Positions 58,336 through 64,000 of a DNA stretch of 64,000 nucleotides are shown in pieces; position 1 is the first letter of the stretch; each line of letters starts with the position of its first letter. Both the position numbers and the translations under genes were made by a program. The notes below the pieces were generated by a model, which saw nothing but the letters and a program-made list of their open reading frames with translations, was not told the origin of the DNA and made no database searches. Source of the DNA: Nitrosomonas nitrosa (GTDB lineage Bacteria > Pseudomonadota > Gammaproteobacteria > Burkholderiales > Nitrosomonadaceae). The DNA lies in the NCBI RefSeq assembly GCF_003051105.1, contig NZ_QAOO01000008.1:62001-126000 (forward strand), in the 5' to 3' direction.

Positions 58336-61131
58336 ATGAACGCTGATGCTGGCGTAAGCGATTATGCTGACAATAACGTGGGTGAGGAAAAAGACAAACC
58401 CCTACGCGAAGACATTCGTATGCTTGGACGCATGCTTGGAGATACGTTACGGGAGCACGAGGGCGAAGCAACGTTTGAGTTAGTCGAAACGATTCGCCAA
58501 ACAGCGGTCCGCTTTCGCCGGGAAAAAGACCCTAAGGCGCGGCAGGAGCTCGATGAAATTCTGAATCGGTTAAGTAACAAGGCAACTATTGCTGTCGTAA
58601 GGGCGTTCAGTTATTTTTCACTACTTTCCAATATTGCAGAAGATCTGCACCATAACCGCCGAAGGCGCGCTCATTTGCGCCAGGGCTCATCTCCACAACC
58701 AGGAAGCGTTACTCTGGCGTTGGAACGCGTGCTCGCAAGGGGTATCGATAGTGCAACCTTGGGGAATTTTTTTGCAAAAGCAATGGTGTCACCCGTATTG
58801 ACAGCGCATCCAACGGAAGTTCAGCGAAGGAGCATTTTGGATTGCCAGTTGACCATACAACGGCTATTGCAGGAGCGCGACCGCATTCAGTTGACACCGA
58901 ATGAAATGCGGCACAACGAGGAAGCAATGCGTGCTGCCATTCAGATTTTGTGGCAAACCCGTATGCTGCGATCAGTACGTCTTACCGTTCATGACGAGAT
59001 CGAGAATGGGCTAATTTATTATAGCTATACGTTTTTAAGCCAGGTGCCCTACGTTTATGCAAAGATCGAAGATTTGCTGGAGCGGCGCCTAGGCAAGGAC
59101 GCACCACGTGTTGCTTCTTTTTTGCGAATTGGAAGCTGGATAGGCAGCGATCGGGATGGTAACCCGTTCGTCACGCACCAAGTCATGTTGCACGCAGCGG
59201 AGCGGCATGCTGCGTTGGTTCTGGATTTTTATATGGATGAAATCAGCAAGATTGGACAGAATATGAGTCTTGCCGAACGATTAATCAGCGTGAGCGACGA
59301 ACTCGAGCAATTGGCGGCTTCTTCACCGGACATACCCGCGAGCCGTATAGATGAGCCCTATCGGCGTGCTTTTCTTGGTATGTATGCACGGCTCGCTGCA
59401 ACGAGTCAGCGGTTTGGGTTGACAGTGGTGCAGCGGTTGCAGGTCAGCCCTACGGAACCTTACGCAGACAGTGCGGAGTTTGTTCATGATCTCGATATCG
59501 TGATCAATTCGCTGAAGCAGCATCGCTCCCATTGGCTGGCAAAGGGTGCGTTGCGAAAATTGCGTCGTGCGGCTGATGTATTCGGATTCCACTTGGCGCC
59601 ATTGGATATGCGGCAGCATAGTCAAGTTCATGAACAGGTTGTCGCAGAGTTGTTTGCGAAAGGTACCCATCAAGACAATTATCTCGAGTTAACAGATGCT
59701 GAGCGAATAGAATGGTTGCTTGCAGAAATCAGTAGCTTAAGATTGCTGCATTCACCGTATTTGAGCTATACCGATACAGTGCAGAGTGAGTTGCGCATCC
59801 TGCACATGGCGGCAGAAATACAACGGCGTTTTGGTCATGCGGCGTTGCCGAATTACATTATTTCCATGACAACAAGTGTCGCCGATGTGCTGGAGGTTGC
59901 GTTACTCCTGAAAGAGGTCGGTTTGTTACATGCGGGCGAGAGCCCCCAGTTGGGTCTCAACATCATTCCATTGTTTGAGACGATCGAGGATTTGCGCAGC
60001 TGCAGCAAGATCATGGATGAATTGTTTTCACTACCCTATTATCGTAAGCTATTGAATTCAAGGGGTAATGTCCAGGAGGTCATGCTTGGCTATTCGGATA
60101 GCAATAAGGATGGTGGATTTCTGACTTCTAACTGGGAAATTTACAAAGCTGAAATCGAATTGACGAAAGTATTTGCTAAGCATAATGTTGAGCTGCGCTT
60201 GTTTCATGGACGAGGGGGTACCGTAGGGCGGGGCGGCGGACCAAGTTACCAGGCAATCATGGCGCAGCCACCAAAAAGCGTAAATGGGCAGATACGGTTG
60301 ACGGAACAAGGGGAAGTGGTAGCCAGTAAATATACCGATCCAGAAATTGGGCGACGTAATCTTGAAACATTGGTTGCAGCCACAATCGAAGCAACATTGC
60401 TGAGCCATGACGCTATCCAGGAAAATGCGCCTCGCTATTACCAAGTGATGGAGACCTTATCGTCCCATGCATTCGCTATTTACCGAGATCTGGTATACGA
60501 AACTCCGGGCTTCAAGCAGTTTTTTCAAGAGGCCACCCCGATTAGGGAAATCGCTGGATTGCATATTGGCAGCAGGCCATCTTCACGTAAACCTTCTGAT
60601 AAGATTGAAGACTTGCGCGCTATCCCATGGGTGTTCAGCTGGAGTCTCAATCGAACAATGCTTCCTGGCTGGTTTGGCTTTGGTTCGGCAGTTGAGGAAT
60701 TCGTTCAGCGAGATCAACAGAACGATAGATTGGCACTCTTGCAGGAAATGTATCTTAAGTGGCCATTCATGCAAGCGCTCTTGTCAAACATGGATATGGT
60801 GTTGGCTAAGACGGATATGGGCATTGCATCGCGCTATGCAGAGCTGGTTACCGACACGGCTTTGCGGGATGAGGTTTTTGGGCGCATCCATGCGGAATGG
60901 GAGCGGAGTGTAAAATGGTTGTTTGCAATTACTGGGCATAAAGAGCTCTTGCAGGAAAACCCGACCTTGTCACGCAGTATTCGTATTCGTTCACCCTATA
61001 TTGATCCGCTCAATCACTTGCAAATTGAGTTGCTGCGGCGTTATTGTGCAGGTGATGACGTTGAACAAGTGCACCGCTCTATCCATTTGACGATAAATGG
61101 CGTTGCAGCAGGACTTAGAAACAGCGGCTGA
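58336..61131 (+). CDS. ppc: Phosphoenolpyruvate carboxylase
   Basis: About 931 residues, usual for the bacterial enzyme. LTAHPTEVQRRS has the catalytic histidine, IGSWIGSDRDGNPFVT and GYSDSNKDGGFLTSNW the active-site loops, and FHGRGGTVGRGGGP the glycine-rich PEP loop. The C-terminal RNSG is the conserved end. It makes oxaloacetate from PEP and bicarbonate, refilling the citric acid cycle. The frame opens at 58264, but I chose ATG 58336 (MNADAG), which leaves room for the divergent hem promoter. Confidence 0.95.
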   Translation: MNADAGVSDYADNNVGEEKDKPLREDIRMLGRMLGDTLREHEGEATFELVETIRQTAVRFRREKDPKARQELDEILNRLSNKATIAVVRAFSYFSLLSNIAEDLHHNRRRRAHLRQGSSPQPGSVTLALERVLARGIDSATLGNFFAKAMVSPVLTAHPTEVQRRSILDCQLTIQRLLQERDRIQLTPNEMRHNEEAMRAAIQILWQTRMLRSVRLTVHDEIENGLIYYSYTFLSQVPYVYAKIEDLLERRLGKDAPRVASFLRIGSWIGSDRDGNPFVTHQVMLHAAERHAALVLDFYMDEISKIGQNMSLAERLISVSDELEQLAASSPDIPASRIDEPYRRAFLGMYARLAATSQRFGLTVVQRLQVSPTEPYADSAEFVHDLDIVINSLKQHRSHWLAKGALRKLRRAADVFGFHLAPLDMRQHSQVHEQVVAELFAKGTHQDNYLELTDAERIEWLLAEISSLRLLHSPYLSYTDTVQSELRILHMAAEIQRRFGHAALPNYIISMTTSVADVLEVALLLKEVGLLHAGESPQLGLNIIPLFETIEDLRSCSKIMDELFSLPYYRKLLNSRGNVQEVMLGYSDSNKDGGFLTSNWEIYKAEIELTKVFAKHNVELRLFHGRGGTVGRGGGPSYQAIMAQPPKSVNGQIRLTEQGEVVASKYTDPEIGRRNLETLVAATIEATLLSHDAIQENAPRYYQVMETLSSHAFAIYRDLVYETPGFKQFFQEATPIREIAGLHIGSRPSSRKPSDKIEDLRAIPWVFSWSLNRTMLPGWFGFGSAVEEFVQRDQQNDRLALLQEMYLKWPFMQALLSNMDMVLAKTDMGIASRYAELVTDTALRDEVFGRIHAEWERSVKWLFAITGHKELLQENPTLSRSIRIRSPYIDPLNHLQIELLRRYCAGDDVEQVHRSIHLTINGVAAGLRNSG

Positions 61132-61216
61132 TGCAGTAAGGCAAGCTGCGGGAATGACGACTGGATTTTTCTTGCAGCTTATTCCGAAGTAATCCATTCA
61201 GGAGGGTGGGGCCATC

Positions 61217-63199
61217 ATGCAATATCGTATTCCACAAGTCGATATCACTCGCTCCCGAGATCATGAATCATTGCCGTCTTCAGGCCGGCCGCCCTGGCTA
61301 CGATCCAGCAGGTTGTTGATTTTTATCGTTTCATTTTCAGCCTGTGCTTTGATCACGCTGATCTATGTGTTTGGCCGTTCCCCAGTCTATCAGAGTTATG
61401 CGACATTATTGACAGTAGCCAAAACCCCGATTGATCAGAGGAGTAGTGATGCGGATATCCAGCATGTCGCCATTCAGAAGCAAATTCTATTTGGCGCTGA
61501 ATTGCTGGCGGAAACGGCAAAACGTCTTCGATCCCTTCCTCGAGAAGATAAGGGAAGCCACATAGCCGTTGCCGATATACGCAATATACTTGATGTGAGA
61601 TCTGTGCCCGATACCAATTTGGTGGAGCTGGTTGCGGAAGGCCCCGATCCTGCTCTGCTTCCTGCACTCATCAATACTTGGATTGAGGTTTACCTTGAAG
61701 CGAGATCGGCGGAAATTGCCAGAACCATCGGTGTGACAGCCCAGATGCTACGAGAGGAGCTGGCGGAACTCACTGAAAAAATCAACTTAAAACGTGCTGA
61801 ACTGGAGCACTTCAGGGAAAAAAACCATATTGTCTCCATGGGGCGCGAAGAAAACGAAGCGTTGGCGCGATTGAGAGGACTCAATGACGCTTTGAACAAG
61901 GCAAGTGAAGAGGAAGTTAATACAAAAGCGAGACTTGACTCGATCAAACAAGCCATCGCGCGTGGCCAGACAGTTGTTCCCAGAGAGGATTCTCTAACAT
62001 TGAGCCAGCTTGAAAGGCGTGCTCAGGAGTTACGAGAAGAATTAGAAGAGCTGGATAGACGTTTTACACGTGAATACATGGCATTGACACCTTCTTTAAA
62101 GGTTATTCCAGAGAAACTGGCCAATCTACAAGCTGAAATTGAGCGTATGCGTAAAACCGGACAAGCCATTGTCGTTTCGGAGGCAGAGCAGGCTTATTCA
62201 GCCGCACGGCAGGCGACACAAGCTGTTCGGGAGCAGCTTGATGAACATCGAAGAAAAGCGGCTGAATTCACGGCGCGATTTGCCGAGCATGAGGCGCTGA
62301 AGAATGATCTGGAAGGGCTGGAGCAGCTTTTTCGAGAAACTCAAGAAAGATTGGTACAAATTGAGGCCCGCTATACCGGGAAATACCCTCAAGTCGATGT
62401 TGTTGAATGGGCCTTTTACCCTGATCATCCCATCTGGCCAAATTATTCGAGGGACGCACTTATTGCCCTTCTTAGCTCTTTGCTGTTTGGGCTTTTTTGC
62501 GTGTGGTTAGTTGAATTTTTAACCCGGAAAGAACGTGCAAAACTTGCAATTAACTTGTCAGGTATCCATGTGTACAGTAACGAGAAACTTGCCTCTGAGG
62601 CAATCGATCAACTGCCATTTTCACAGAGCGCACTGAATCAACCACCGCAATATGCGCTCAAGCAGTCACTGATAAAGGAAATGCCTGCTGAACAGATCGA
62701 CGTGCTGATTAAAGCTGCCAATAAAAAGGAGCAGCAACTGTTGGTATTGTTATTGAGCGGATTGACTTTACAAGAAATCGCAGCATTGCAAATCGAAAAT
62801 ATTGATCTTGAGAAGGCTATTGTGACCATTACTGGCACTTACCCTAGGCACATCCCATTACATCCATTGTTAAAAGCGAGTTTGCAAGAGTATGGGTTGG
62901 CACTCGTGAATCCATCCGGCGATACGCTTTCTCAAGATGACCTGGCAGCATTGTTGACGTGCGCGATTGTCGATGCAGGGTTACCTGTTACGGATGATAT
63001 CTCTGCTGCTTCCTTGCGGCATACCTACATTGCTTATCTTGTGAGACAGGGTGTACGCCTTTCGGAACTTGAGAAAATCGTCGGCTACGTTCCTCCGGCA
63101 GAATTATCGATCTTGAGCAAGTATGCGCCAGTTGGCCCGAAACGCGGCATTGACGAAATTGAACTGTTTTATCCGTTGGCCCCATCGCCTCAAGCGTGA
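61217..63199 (+). CDS. Wzz-like chain-length regulator fused to a degenerate tyrosine-recombinase-like domain
   Basis: A 660-residue protein with three parts. Membrane helix 1 (about 33-52) and helix 2 (about 414-434) flank a long periplasmic helical coiled coil (about 150-390; RAQELREELEELDRRFTREY), as in Wzz/GumC polysaccharide co-polymerases. After helix 2 comes a cytoplasmic part of about 225 residues. There, 495-640 resembles the catalytic half of a phage integrase: LLLSGLTLQEIAALQIENID, RHIPLHPLL, and SLRHTYIAYLVRQGVRLSELEKIVG. ArgII R601 with H602-T603 remains. The ArgI place is T517, the beta-hairpin lysine is missing, HisII is A598 and the His/Trp place is Y624; Y636 may be a remnant of the tyrosine. 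BY-kinase motifs are not seen. A strong AGGAGG ribosome site precedes the ATG. Confidence 0.78.
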   Translation: MQYRIPQVDITRSRDHESLPSSGRPPWLRSSRLLIFIVSFSACALITLIYVFGRSPVYQSYATLLTVAKTPIDQRSSDADIQHVAIQKQILFGAELLAETAKRLRSLPREDKGSHIAVADIRNILDVRSVPDTNLVELVAEGPDPALLPALINTWIEVYLEARSAEIARTIGVTAQMLREELAELTEKINLKRAELEHFREKNHIVSMGREENEALARLRGLNDALNKASEEEVNTKARLDSIKQAIARGQTVVPREDSLTLSQLERRAQELREELEELDRRFTREYMALTPSLKVIPEKLANLQAEIERMRKTGQAIVVSEAEQAYSAARQATQAVREQLDEHRRKAAEFTARFAEHEALKNDLEGLEQLFRETQERLVQIEARYTGKYPQVDVVEWAFYPDHPIWPNYSRDALIALLSSLLFGLFCVWLVEFLTRKERAKLAINLSGIHVYSNEKLASEAIDQLPFSQSALNQPPQYALKQSLIKEMPAEQIDVLIKAANKKEQQLLVLLLSGLTLQEIAALQIENIDLEKAIVTITGTYPRHIPLHPLLKASLQEYGLALVNPSGDTLSQDDLAALLTCAIVDAGLPVTDDISAASLRHTYIAYLVRQGVRLSELEKIVGYVPPAELSILSKYAPVGPKRGIDEIELFYPLAPSPQA

Positions 63200-63205
63200 G
63201 TGGAA

Positions 63206-64000
63206 TTATCCATTACCTAGAAGTGTATTAATCAGCTTGGTTTCGATCGCTTGATAGAGGGGATTCTGGTTTCGGGCTGCAGAAGGCTTTTGCCACGCAG
63301 GGTTTTGCTGAAGTGTGCTGATCATGCTGGACCAATCACTCGGTAATTTTTCTGTAGCAGAGGCTGTAACTGTGTTGATTTGATCAATATGGTAGGCTGC
63401 GTGACCGCGATGCATGAGCTTTGACAGTAATTGCTGCTGGCGTAGAAACAGTATTTGTAAAGTATTCTCATCTGCACATAACCATTGTGTGCCTTGTATT
63501 TTTGCTTTGATTTCTTTGCCGTATCGTTTGAATGTCGACCAGCCGGTGCCCGCAATAGCGCCAAAAGCACTGGCAGCACCGAGACTGAGCCCGCCTACCA
63601 TCAGATCGATTCCGGCCCCTGCCGCAGCCCCCTTGAGTGCCGCGCTTCCAACATCAAGACCATAGGCCTTGAGCACGCCCGGCGCGAAAAGATCGATCTG
63701 CCATTGACCATTACTTACCGGAATTTTTTGCAAGGCGATATCTTTCTCCGAAAAATTAAAAATAGCAAGCAAGTCTTGCAGACAACGCTGCTCGGCTTTT
63801 CTAACAAAATCCTTTAACTTCTGGGCGGCGGTATTGACAGTATTATCACTCTGACTATGTTTACTCTCGCGATGACAGGCGACAGAAACAATGAGGTCGG
63901 CGATCCGCTTGGCTGCGGATAAACAAAGCTGATCCCAGACCTTAGCCCGGTGGTTGATCAATTTTTGTAATTTATCGTAGTGTAATTCCACTAGGCTTTG
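63206..64000 (-). CDS. DUF3482-type GTPase, C-terminal part (cut by window edge)
   Basis: The frame is open to base 64000 (upstream codons read Q-S-L), so the N-terminal GTPase domain lies beyond the window. The visible 264 residues are the helical C-terminal domain, with a glycine/alanine-rich membrane-like hairpin (about 120-150; GAAAGAGIDLMVGGLSLGAASAFGAIAG) and the end KLINTLLGNG. This fits the DUF3482 domain that follows a GTPase domain in a conserved proteobacterial protein. The in-frame GTG at 63991 is not the true start. It converges on the Wzz-like gene with 6 bases between. Confidence 0.72.
   Translation of the reverse strand, partial: QSLVELHYDKLQKLINHRAKVWDQLCLSAAKRIADLIVSVACHRESKHSQSDNTVNTAAQKLKDFVRKAEQRCLQDLLAIFNFSEKDIALQKIPVSNGQWQIDLFAPGVLKAYGLDVGSAALKGAAAGAGIDLMVGGLSLGAASAFGAIAGTGWSTFKRYGKEIKAKIQGTQWLCADENTLQILFLRQQQLLSKLMHRGHAAYHIDQINTVTASATEKLPSDWSSMISTLQQNPAWQKPSAARNQNPLYQAIETKLINTLLGNG

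Follow-up and report, generated by a model that had tools for sequence, protein, structure and literature searches.

A 64,000-nucleotide stretch of the Nitrosomonas nitrosa genome (hereafter the window, meaning the whole stretch analysed) carries, near its far end, a gene for a 660-residue protein in which a polysaccharide co-polymerase (PCP) is fused to a domain with the tyrosine-recombinase fold. The gene is one uninterrupted open reading frame (ORF) behind a strong ribosome-binding site, as a first-pass annotation of this DNA had stated; its features are collected in Table 1. By its predicted structure, the product is an inner-membrane PCP of the kind that has two transmembrane (TM) helices and a large periplasmic domain, with a catalytically dead recombinase domain (a pseudo-recombinase) in the place that a bacterial tyrosine kinase (BY-kinase) occupies in Wzc-type relatives. 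The first-pass annotation had already pointed to this exchange of a kinase for an integrase-type domain.

Table 1. Features of the fusion gene and its product (positions are those of the window; AF2, AlphaFold2; HMM, hidden Markov model; pLDDT, predicted local distance difference test; CAT, catalytic)
Feature	Position	Strand	Basis
Ribosome-binding site AGGAGG, 11 nt upstream of ATG	61200..61205	+	read from sequence
Co-polymerase/pseudo-recombinase fusion, 660 residues, one frame	61217..63199	+	open ORF, ATG start; 93 further distinct full-length relatives
TM helix 1, residues 31-53	61307..61375	+	AF2 full-length model
Periplasmic co-polymerase domain with long coiled coil, residues 54-409	61376..62443	+	AF2; Foldseek to Wzc, KpsE, WzzE; TIGR03007/TIGR01005/EpsF HMM matches below cut-off
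TM helix 2, residues 410-436	62444..62524	+	AF2 full-length model
Disordered linker, residues 437-489, motif LSGIHVY at 447-453	62525..62683	+	pLDDT <50 at 438-484; motif form in 60/94 members
Catalytically dead tyrosine-recombinase (CAT-like) domain, residues 490-655	62684..63181	+	HMM, AF2, Foldseek, VIA-align, aligned columns
R544, in 93/94 members	62846..62848	+	family alignment
R601, place of ArgII, in 88/94 members	63017..63019	+	family and control alignment
L633, nucleophile Tyr column (Y in 77/94 members)	63113..63115	+	family and control alignment

The N-terminal two thirds of the protein have the features of a PCP in the wide sense. In the full-length AF2 model the two TM helices flank a large, mostly helical periplasmic domain, which bears out the Wzz/GumC layout proposed earlier, and the similarity extends to sequence and fold. 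Among the NCBIfam chain-length models, TIGR03007 (E-value 1.7e-17), TIGR01005 (1.5e-14) and EpsF (7.3e-08) match this part of the protein, all of them below the curated cut-offs; the TIGR03007 score of 62.8 bits, where the cut-off is set at 278.85, does not make the fusion an equivalog. Pfam Wzz is also below its cut-off on the fusion protein (15.6 against 25.5 bits). A Foldseek search with the full-length model returned Wzc first (E-value 1.9e-10), followed by XerA, KpsE and WzzE.

The C-terminal part above chance matches integrases and recombinases only, whether it is compared with Pfam, with NCBIfam or by fold, and the BY-kinase of a PCP-2a protein is not found there. Searched alone, the C-terminal 219 residues match Pfam Phage_integrase with 29.2 bits (E-value 9.2e-07), over the cut-off of 27.1 bits, whereas the scan with the whole protein stays just under it (26.2 bits, E-value 7.8e-06); NCBIfam XerA matches the same part with an E-value of 1.9e-10, below its curated cut-off. 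An AF2 model of the domain built from 31 sequences has a mean pLDDT of 79.4, with 122 of its 223 residues at 90 or above and the first 45, which belong to the linker, below 50. The top match of this model in the Protein Data Bank by Foldseek is XerA (5hxy, E-value 2.2e-08), other integrases being matched as well, and VIA-align gives Z 16.4 to both 5hxy and 4a8e (for 4a8e, root-mean-square deviation 2.3 over 151 aligned residues). The fused integrase-type domain of the first-pass annotation was thus recovered both by structure prediction with fold search and by an HMM search with the C-terminal domain alone. The N-terminal core-binding DNA domain of recombinases is absent, a disordered linker of about 50 residues and a TM helix preceding the domain instead. 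An internal start that would yield a free domain is unsupported, residue 489 being Met in only 1 of 31 aligned members. Membership in a defence system was likewise discarded, as PADLOC gave weak matches to the coiled coil only.

The state of the active site was read from an alignment of the family with real recombinases. The family was collected as 157 ORF matches at E-value ≤ 1e-40, of which 113 were left after deduplication: 94 full-length sequences, window included, 17 short ones and 2 fragments. The controls were 29 recombinases (28 distinct) from five of the genomes surveyed for the family, aligned to the family profile; they were drawn from the 30 best-matching loci, of which one (L206) did not match that profile. 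One control, L202, scores 0.4 bits and is the sole row that breaks columns 517, 598, 624 and 633, probably through a wrong frame or misalignment.

An active tyrosine recombinase carries the set R-H-R-H/W-Y together with a hairpin lysine, and the window protein keeps ArgII alone. At the place of ArgI (column 517) no family member has Arg (Thr in 55 and Ser in 31 of 94, T517 in the window), compared with 28 of 29 controls, and HisII (column 598, A598 in the window) is also lost in 94 of 94 members, being His in 28 of 29 controls. ArgII at column 601 is present in all 29 controls and in 88 of the 94. The His/Trp place, Y624 in the window, holds one of these residues in 4/94 members versus 28/29 controls, and the hairpin lysine at column 542 is found in 1/94 versus 17/29. 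All these assignments agree with those of the first-pass annotation, which had, in addition, offered Y636 as a possible nucleophile. This last point has to be corrected: the nucleophile column is 633, with Tyr in 28/29 controls and 77/94 members, and HMMER alignments to 3nkh and 4a8e also place the nucleophile there, while column 636 holds Leu, Val or Ile in 23/29 controls. Since residue 633 is Leu in the window protein, this protein has no nucleophile. As ArgI and HisII are lost throughout, the domain cannot, judging from the aligned columns, perform DNA recombination of the known type in any of the 94 members. Recombinase-type residues that are retained include G515 (94/94), R544 (93/94), E520 (92/94) and R601; others are nearly invariant in this family and not so in recombinases, namely L618 (94/94), Y604 and Q611 (90/94 each) and D586 (85/94). 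Thus, of the three places whose conservation had been put in question, R601 is conserved, 624 varies freely and 636 is not the nucleophile column.

A scan of a genome collection found 27 relatives in Nitrosomonas, Methylobacter, Methylomicrobium and Methylococcaceae, as well as in three metagenome-assembled genomes (MAGs) labelled Burkholderiales or Gammaproteobacteria only; the best named relative, from Nitrosomonas sp. Nm132, has 74% identity. The 94 full-length members belong to Nitrosomonas, to methanotrophs and to a small number of further Gammaproteobacteria. Within Nitrosomonas the domain scores above 250 bits in 25 of 85 genomes, in frames of 655–715 residues. The next matches reach at most 39.3 bits, and none of these 85 genomes has the domain as a separate protein scoring above 40 bits. 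In wider samples, the fusion is present in 83 of 251 genomes of the order of G309 (a count that takes in short forms and fragments), in 7 of 36 genomes of the order of G374, in 6/369 of a class sample and in 2/299 of a phylum sample. We take the order of G309 to be Methylococcales because its sequences interleave in the tree with those of named Methylobacter and Methylomicrobium.

This tree is a maximum-likelihood tree of the PCP part with 113 rows, obtained by a quick search with support from the Shimodaira–Hasegawa-like approximate likelihood-ratio test (SH-aLRT) only, and its deepest forks are unsure owing to long branches. The 22-row Nitrosomonas group lies within a 55-row clade (support 100) whose other rows come from the methanotroph order, plus one unplaced MAG, and this suggests that the fusion was transferred between Nitrosomonas and methanotroph-order groups. 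The 14 complete short forms, all from genus g304, make up one clade (SH-aLRT 94). A full-length member is its neighbour (86), and both are enclosed in a 25-row clade (100) with further full-length members. With the short forms nested among full-length ones, the domain was most simply lost once in this methanotroph clade, as far as the tree can tell, while the PCP stayed. Three other short sequences (L052, L054 and L130) run into the edge of a contig or locus and were not counted as losses; L130 was left in the tree as short, which makes the tree's change count 2. Among the carriers of the G309 order 16 are short by match range, of which 14 are in the tree.

The short forms (L118-L129, L131 and L132) have frames of 494–555 residues, and their loci are mostly alike, with genes for a heptosyltransferase, an HD domain plus DUF3391 and a cupin and, in many, resistance-nodulation-division (RND) efflux genes. 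Two full-length copies of the fusion are found in each of three genomes of genus g334 (G570, G648 and G660), where the second copies group together in a separate, long-branched clade. The copy of one MAG labelled Gammaproteobacteria bacterium (L042) is nested among Nitrosomonas sequences and has an N. marina-type neighbourhood, so its label or binning may be wrong. The full-length members with the linker motif of Table 1 have it in a form like LSGIHLY, and a related form such as TEFQIY, detected with a different, looser pattern, is found in 13 of the 14 short forms without the domain. This motif resembles the TGxxxLG segment after TM helix 2 of XrtA co-polymerases; that it is a kinase-docking strand is only an idea.

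Upstream of the fusion gene, a ppc-like ORF on the same strand stops at 61131 (like those of hemC and hemD in the window, the name ppc was given by eye), and a simple scan of positions 60900-63400 on the plus strand showed no sigma-70-like promoter and no terminator-like site. The downstream neighbour is an oppositely directed ORF that meets the fusion ORF at 63206 and is truncated by the window edge (63206-64000, minus strand); in N. europaea (L056), where the corresponding gene next to the fusion is complete, its product resembles a P-loop GTPase by eye. A family-2 glycosyltransferase adjoins the fusion in three loci (L047, L098 and L111).

It is the content of the genome, and not the neighbourhood, that gives a candidate name for the process to which the fusion is tied, namely the XrtA/PEP-CTERM system, because the fusion co-occurs with the TIGR03007 co-polymerase of this system. 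In a Nitrosomonas sample, a TIGR03007 protein over the cut-off is encoded in 11/11 carriers versus 0/15 non-carriers, the latter chosen out of 26 genomes of the genus without the fusion, and a PF02563 export protein adjoins the TIGR03007 gene in all 11 carriers. The order of G309, where at most five candidates were scored per genome, gives a similar result: at E-value ≤ 1e-60 the co-polymerase is found in 75/83 carriers versus 39/168 non-carriers, over the cut-off in 74/83 versus 27/168, and, counted by genus, in 25/26 carrier versus 8/22 non-carrier genera. Leaving out the 16 short forms, 59/67 carriers have it at E-value ≤ 1e-60. The Fisher tests on such counts ignore shared ancestry, and their p-values are therefore not to be taken at face value. 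The XrtA cluster of the relative G006 comprises an export protein, a PCP, the XrtA tyrosine autokinase, a TIGR03016 protein, an ATPase, a deacetylase, FemAB and exosortase A. The genome that contains the window has its XrtA PCP and kinase genes side by side on an 11-kb contig. A different explanation, the fusion as a mark of copper membrane monooxygenases, was dropped. PF02461 (ammonia and particulate methane monooxygenases, AMO/pMMO) is enriched in the class sample of 369 genomes (3/6 carriers versus 8/363 non-carriers), but it is not exclusive and two of the three positive carriers come from one genus.

We tentatively favour, somewhat short of conviction, a reading in which the fusion is an accessory second PCP for an XrtA-type exopolysaccharide and the pseudo-recombinase is a tethered protein-protein module that steadies or controls the PCP oligomer independently of phosphorylation. 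Here we infer the docking, its partner and the pathway as follows. The cytoplasmic domain, on its flexible tether, would serve for docking and assembly, binding either its like in another chain or a protein of the cytoplasm (the XrtA kinase or glycosyltransferases, for instance), and this docking would steady or control the oligomeric PCP, which in turn would serve the XrtA-type exopolysaccharide. The scaffold without phosphorylation follows what has been proposed for EcpK, a dead kinase serving the co-polymerase EpsV (PMC12004946).

Several observations weigh against this proposal. In the window's own genome the fusion is outside the XrtA cluster (contig C8 versus contig C48), and no neighbour is common to all lineages (the gene was located in 61 of 63 longer loci); as only 20 representative neighbour proteins were scanned, some copies may still be located in polysaccharide clusters. 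When compared with a profile of the PCP part, six other co-polymerases (EpsF/GumC-like or kinase-bearing, chosen as matches of a prior scan) reach 62–93 bits and three XrtA co-polymerases only 14–40, so the fusion is no mere duplicate of the XrtA protein. The association is also imperfect, since in the order of G309, at E-value ≤ 1e-60, 39 of the 114 genomes with the XrtA co-polymerase have no fusion and 8 of the 83 carriers have no XrtA co-polymerase. Besides, common descent makes the co-occurrence look stronger than it is, TIGR03007 only stands in for the XrtA system (G006 being the one genome in which exosortase A was checked), and outer membrane polysaccharide export (OPX) proteins do not discriminate, a PF02563 protein being present, elsewhere in the genome, in 11 of the 15 chosen non-carriers too. 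Membership in a PEP-CTERM/RpoN regulon found no support: a sigma-54 pattern scored at least 9 in the 300 bp upstream of 4/94 members, against a mean of 3.9 in shuffled sequences that preserved base composition only. On the structural side, the Wzc match of the full-length model has low TM-scores (0.27 and 0.26), and with a predicted TM-score (pTM) of 0.36 this model does not fix the relative placement of the domains.

The dead domains of neighbouring chains might dock in trans through the C-terminal segment (about residues 627-655) and so replace tyrosine phosphorylation in length control, a recombinase assembly having been turned into a switch for assembly at the membrane; this specific form of docking we regard as rather unlikely. 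Recombinases build rings on DNA in which they dock onto each other, and the idea likens the fusion to these rings as well as to the docking of kinase-domain tails in Wzc. Octamers of Wzc are held by a kinase ring, and a Tyr-rich tail enters the active site of the neighbour (PMC8285477).

Other roles have to be weighed against the accessory PCP with a docking module. It is unlikely that the former active-site pocket is a ligand switch, binding an anion, a nucleotide or a sugar-phosphate and reporting precursor supply to the co-polymerase. A flexible linker would suit such a sensor domain, and few residues are conserved as well as R601 and R544 despite the lost catalysis. However, the pocket positions 624 and 598 vary freely, and R544, present in 20/29 ordinary recombinases, may be structural.

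The first-pass annotation had considered the domain as a protein or DNA platform. The DNA part of this claim leads to a membrane-tethered anchor for DNA or the nucleoid, which would have kept sequence-specific DNA binding in the manner of MrpR/YopR and would couple the making of envelope polysaccharide with the chromosome or with transcription. The fold is the same, ArgII and R544 are kept, and a non-catalytic precedent exists in MrpR, a repressor of recombinase fold that has lost catalysis (PMC10516654) and has VIA-align Z of about 12 to the domain model. The charge of the domain is different, though. Over the same columns, all 94 family domains are acidic (−14 to −1, median −6, window −7), whereas the controls range from −5 to +10 (median +4) and 27 of the 29 are net positive; in the 12 controls that could be measured with insertions included, the span carries +5 to +14. 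Moreover, column 586 is Arg or Lys in 15/29 recombinases and Asp in 85/94 family members, and the core-binding DNA domain is replaced by the linker and TM helix. Net acidity thus speaks against DNA binding, although it is not decisive, since two of the 29 real recombinases are also net negative over these columns, a point that likewise tells against our preferred proposal. On this view the domain has no DNA-cutting activity and is unlikely to bind DNA: a non-catalytic platform stays plausible, a platform for DNA is disfavoured, and the anchor appears distinctly improbable to us.

It is very improbable that the domain is a passive leftover without a job, from an old integrase beside a PCP gene that was joined to it by chance. 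One clade did drop the domain and keep the PCP, and of the two parts the PCP is the slower to evolve, with a median ratio of nonsynonymous to synonymous substitution rates (dN/dS) of 0.08 against 0.14 for the domain (0.19 for the linker). Nevertheless, dN/dS of the domain lies between 0.04 and 0.27 in all 18 close pairs (non-overlapping, among 37 at 80–97% identity), so that by this measure the domain is under purifying selection; it also has conserved residues of its own and has been retained across several bacterial families. An assembly error or a chance match, finally, has practically no probability left, since the same one-frame fusion recurs in 94 distinct full-length sequences and since fold, HMM and control alignments are concordant.

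The fusion can be placed among known systems by what it shares with each. With Wzc-type PCP-2a proteins it has in common two TM helices, a coiled-coil periplasmic domain and one large C-terminal cytoplasmic domain; this domain is of tyrosine-recombinase fold in the fusion and a P-loop kinase in Wzc, and the window protein has no separate Tyr-rich tail after it. The kinase-less co-polymerases like EpsF and GumC come nearest to the PCP part among the proteins compared (up to 93 bits), yet they end soon after TM helix 2 without a recombinase-fold domain. The XrtA chain-length determinant, which is the best NCBIfam match of the PCP part and occurs in the same genomes, also lacks the C-terminal domain, is located in the XrtA cluster and is scored poorly by the PCP-part profile. 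In the pseudokinase PCP-2 systems EcpK/EpsV and HfsB/HfsA (PMC12004946) there is likewise a dead-enzyme module at the kinase place with a proposed phosphorylation-free scaffold; theirs has the BY-kinase fold, which the fusion does not have, and is a separate protein instead of part of the same chain, so that the likeness to EcpK concerns only how the module is proposed to work. The catalytic-domain fold is that of XerA, XerC and XerD, without their core-binding domain and with the catalytic set lost in 94/94. MrpR/YopR (PMC10516654) also have a recombinase fold without recombinase activity, but they are DNA-binding regulators, unlike the membrane-bound, acidic fusion that lacks the core-binding domain. 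PCPs that work with a kinase or a pseudokinase are already known, and so is a dead recombinase that acts as a repressor. No earlier description of a PCP with a dead recombinase was found in the open-access literature of PubMed Central (PMC), which is weak evidence of absence; the papers that came up used the terms in unrelated contexts or dealt with viral integration, and the main text of PMC1569441, in the portion available, mentions neither integrase nor recombinase.

Co-polymerases set the length of bacterial surface polymers, and the best-known control over them is the tyrosine-kinase ring. If our proposal is true, a dead recombinase fold at the kinase place would add one more, unrelated solution to that of the pseudokinases, and it would show how a DNA enzyme can turn into a part of the cell envelope. 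The natural forms that have lost the domain make its role directly testable. For the ammonia oxidisers and methanotrophs that carry it, we think that the fusion is a candidate extra component of their XrtA/PEP-CTERM exopolysaccharide systems.

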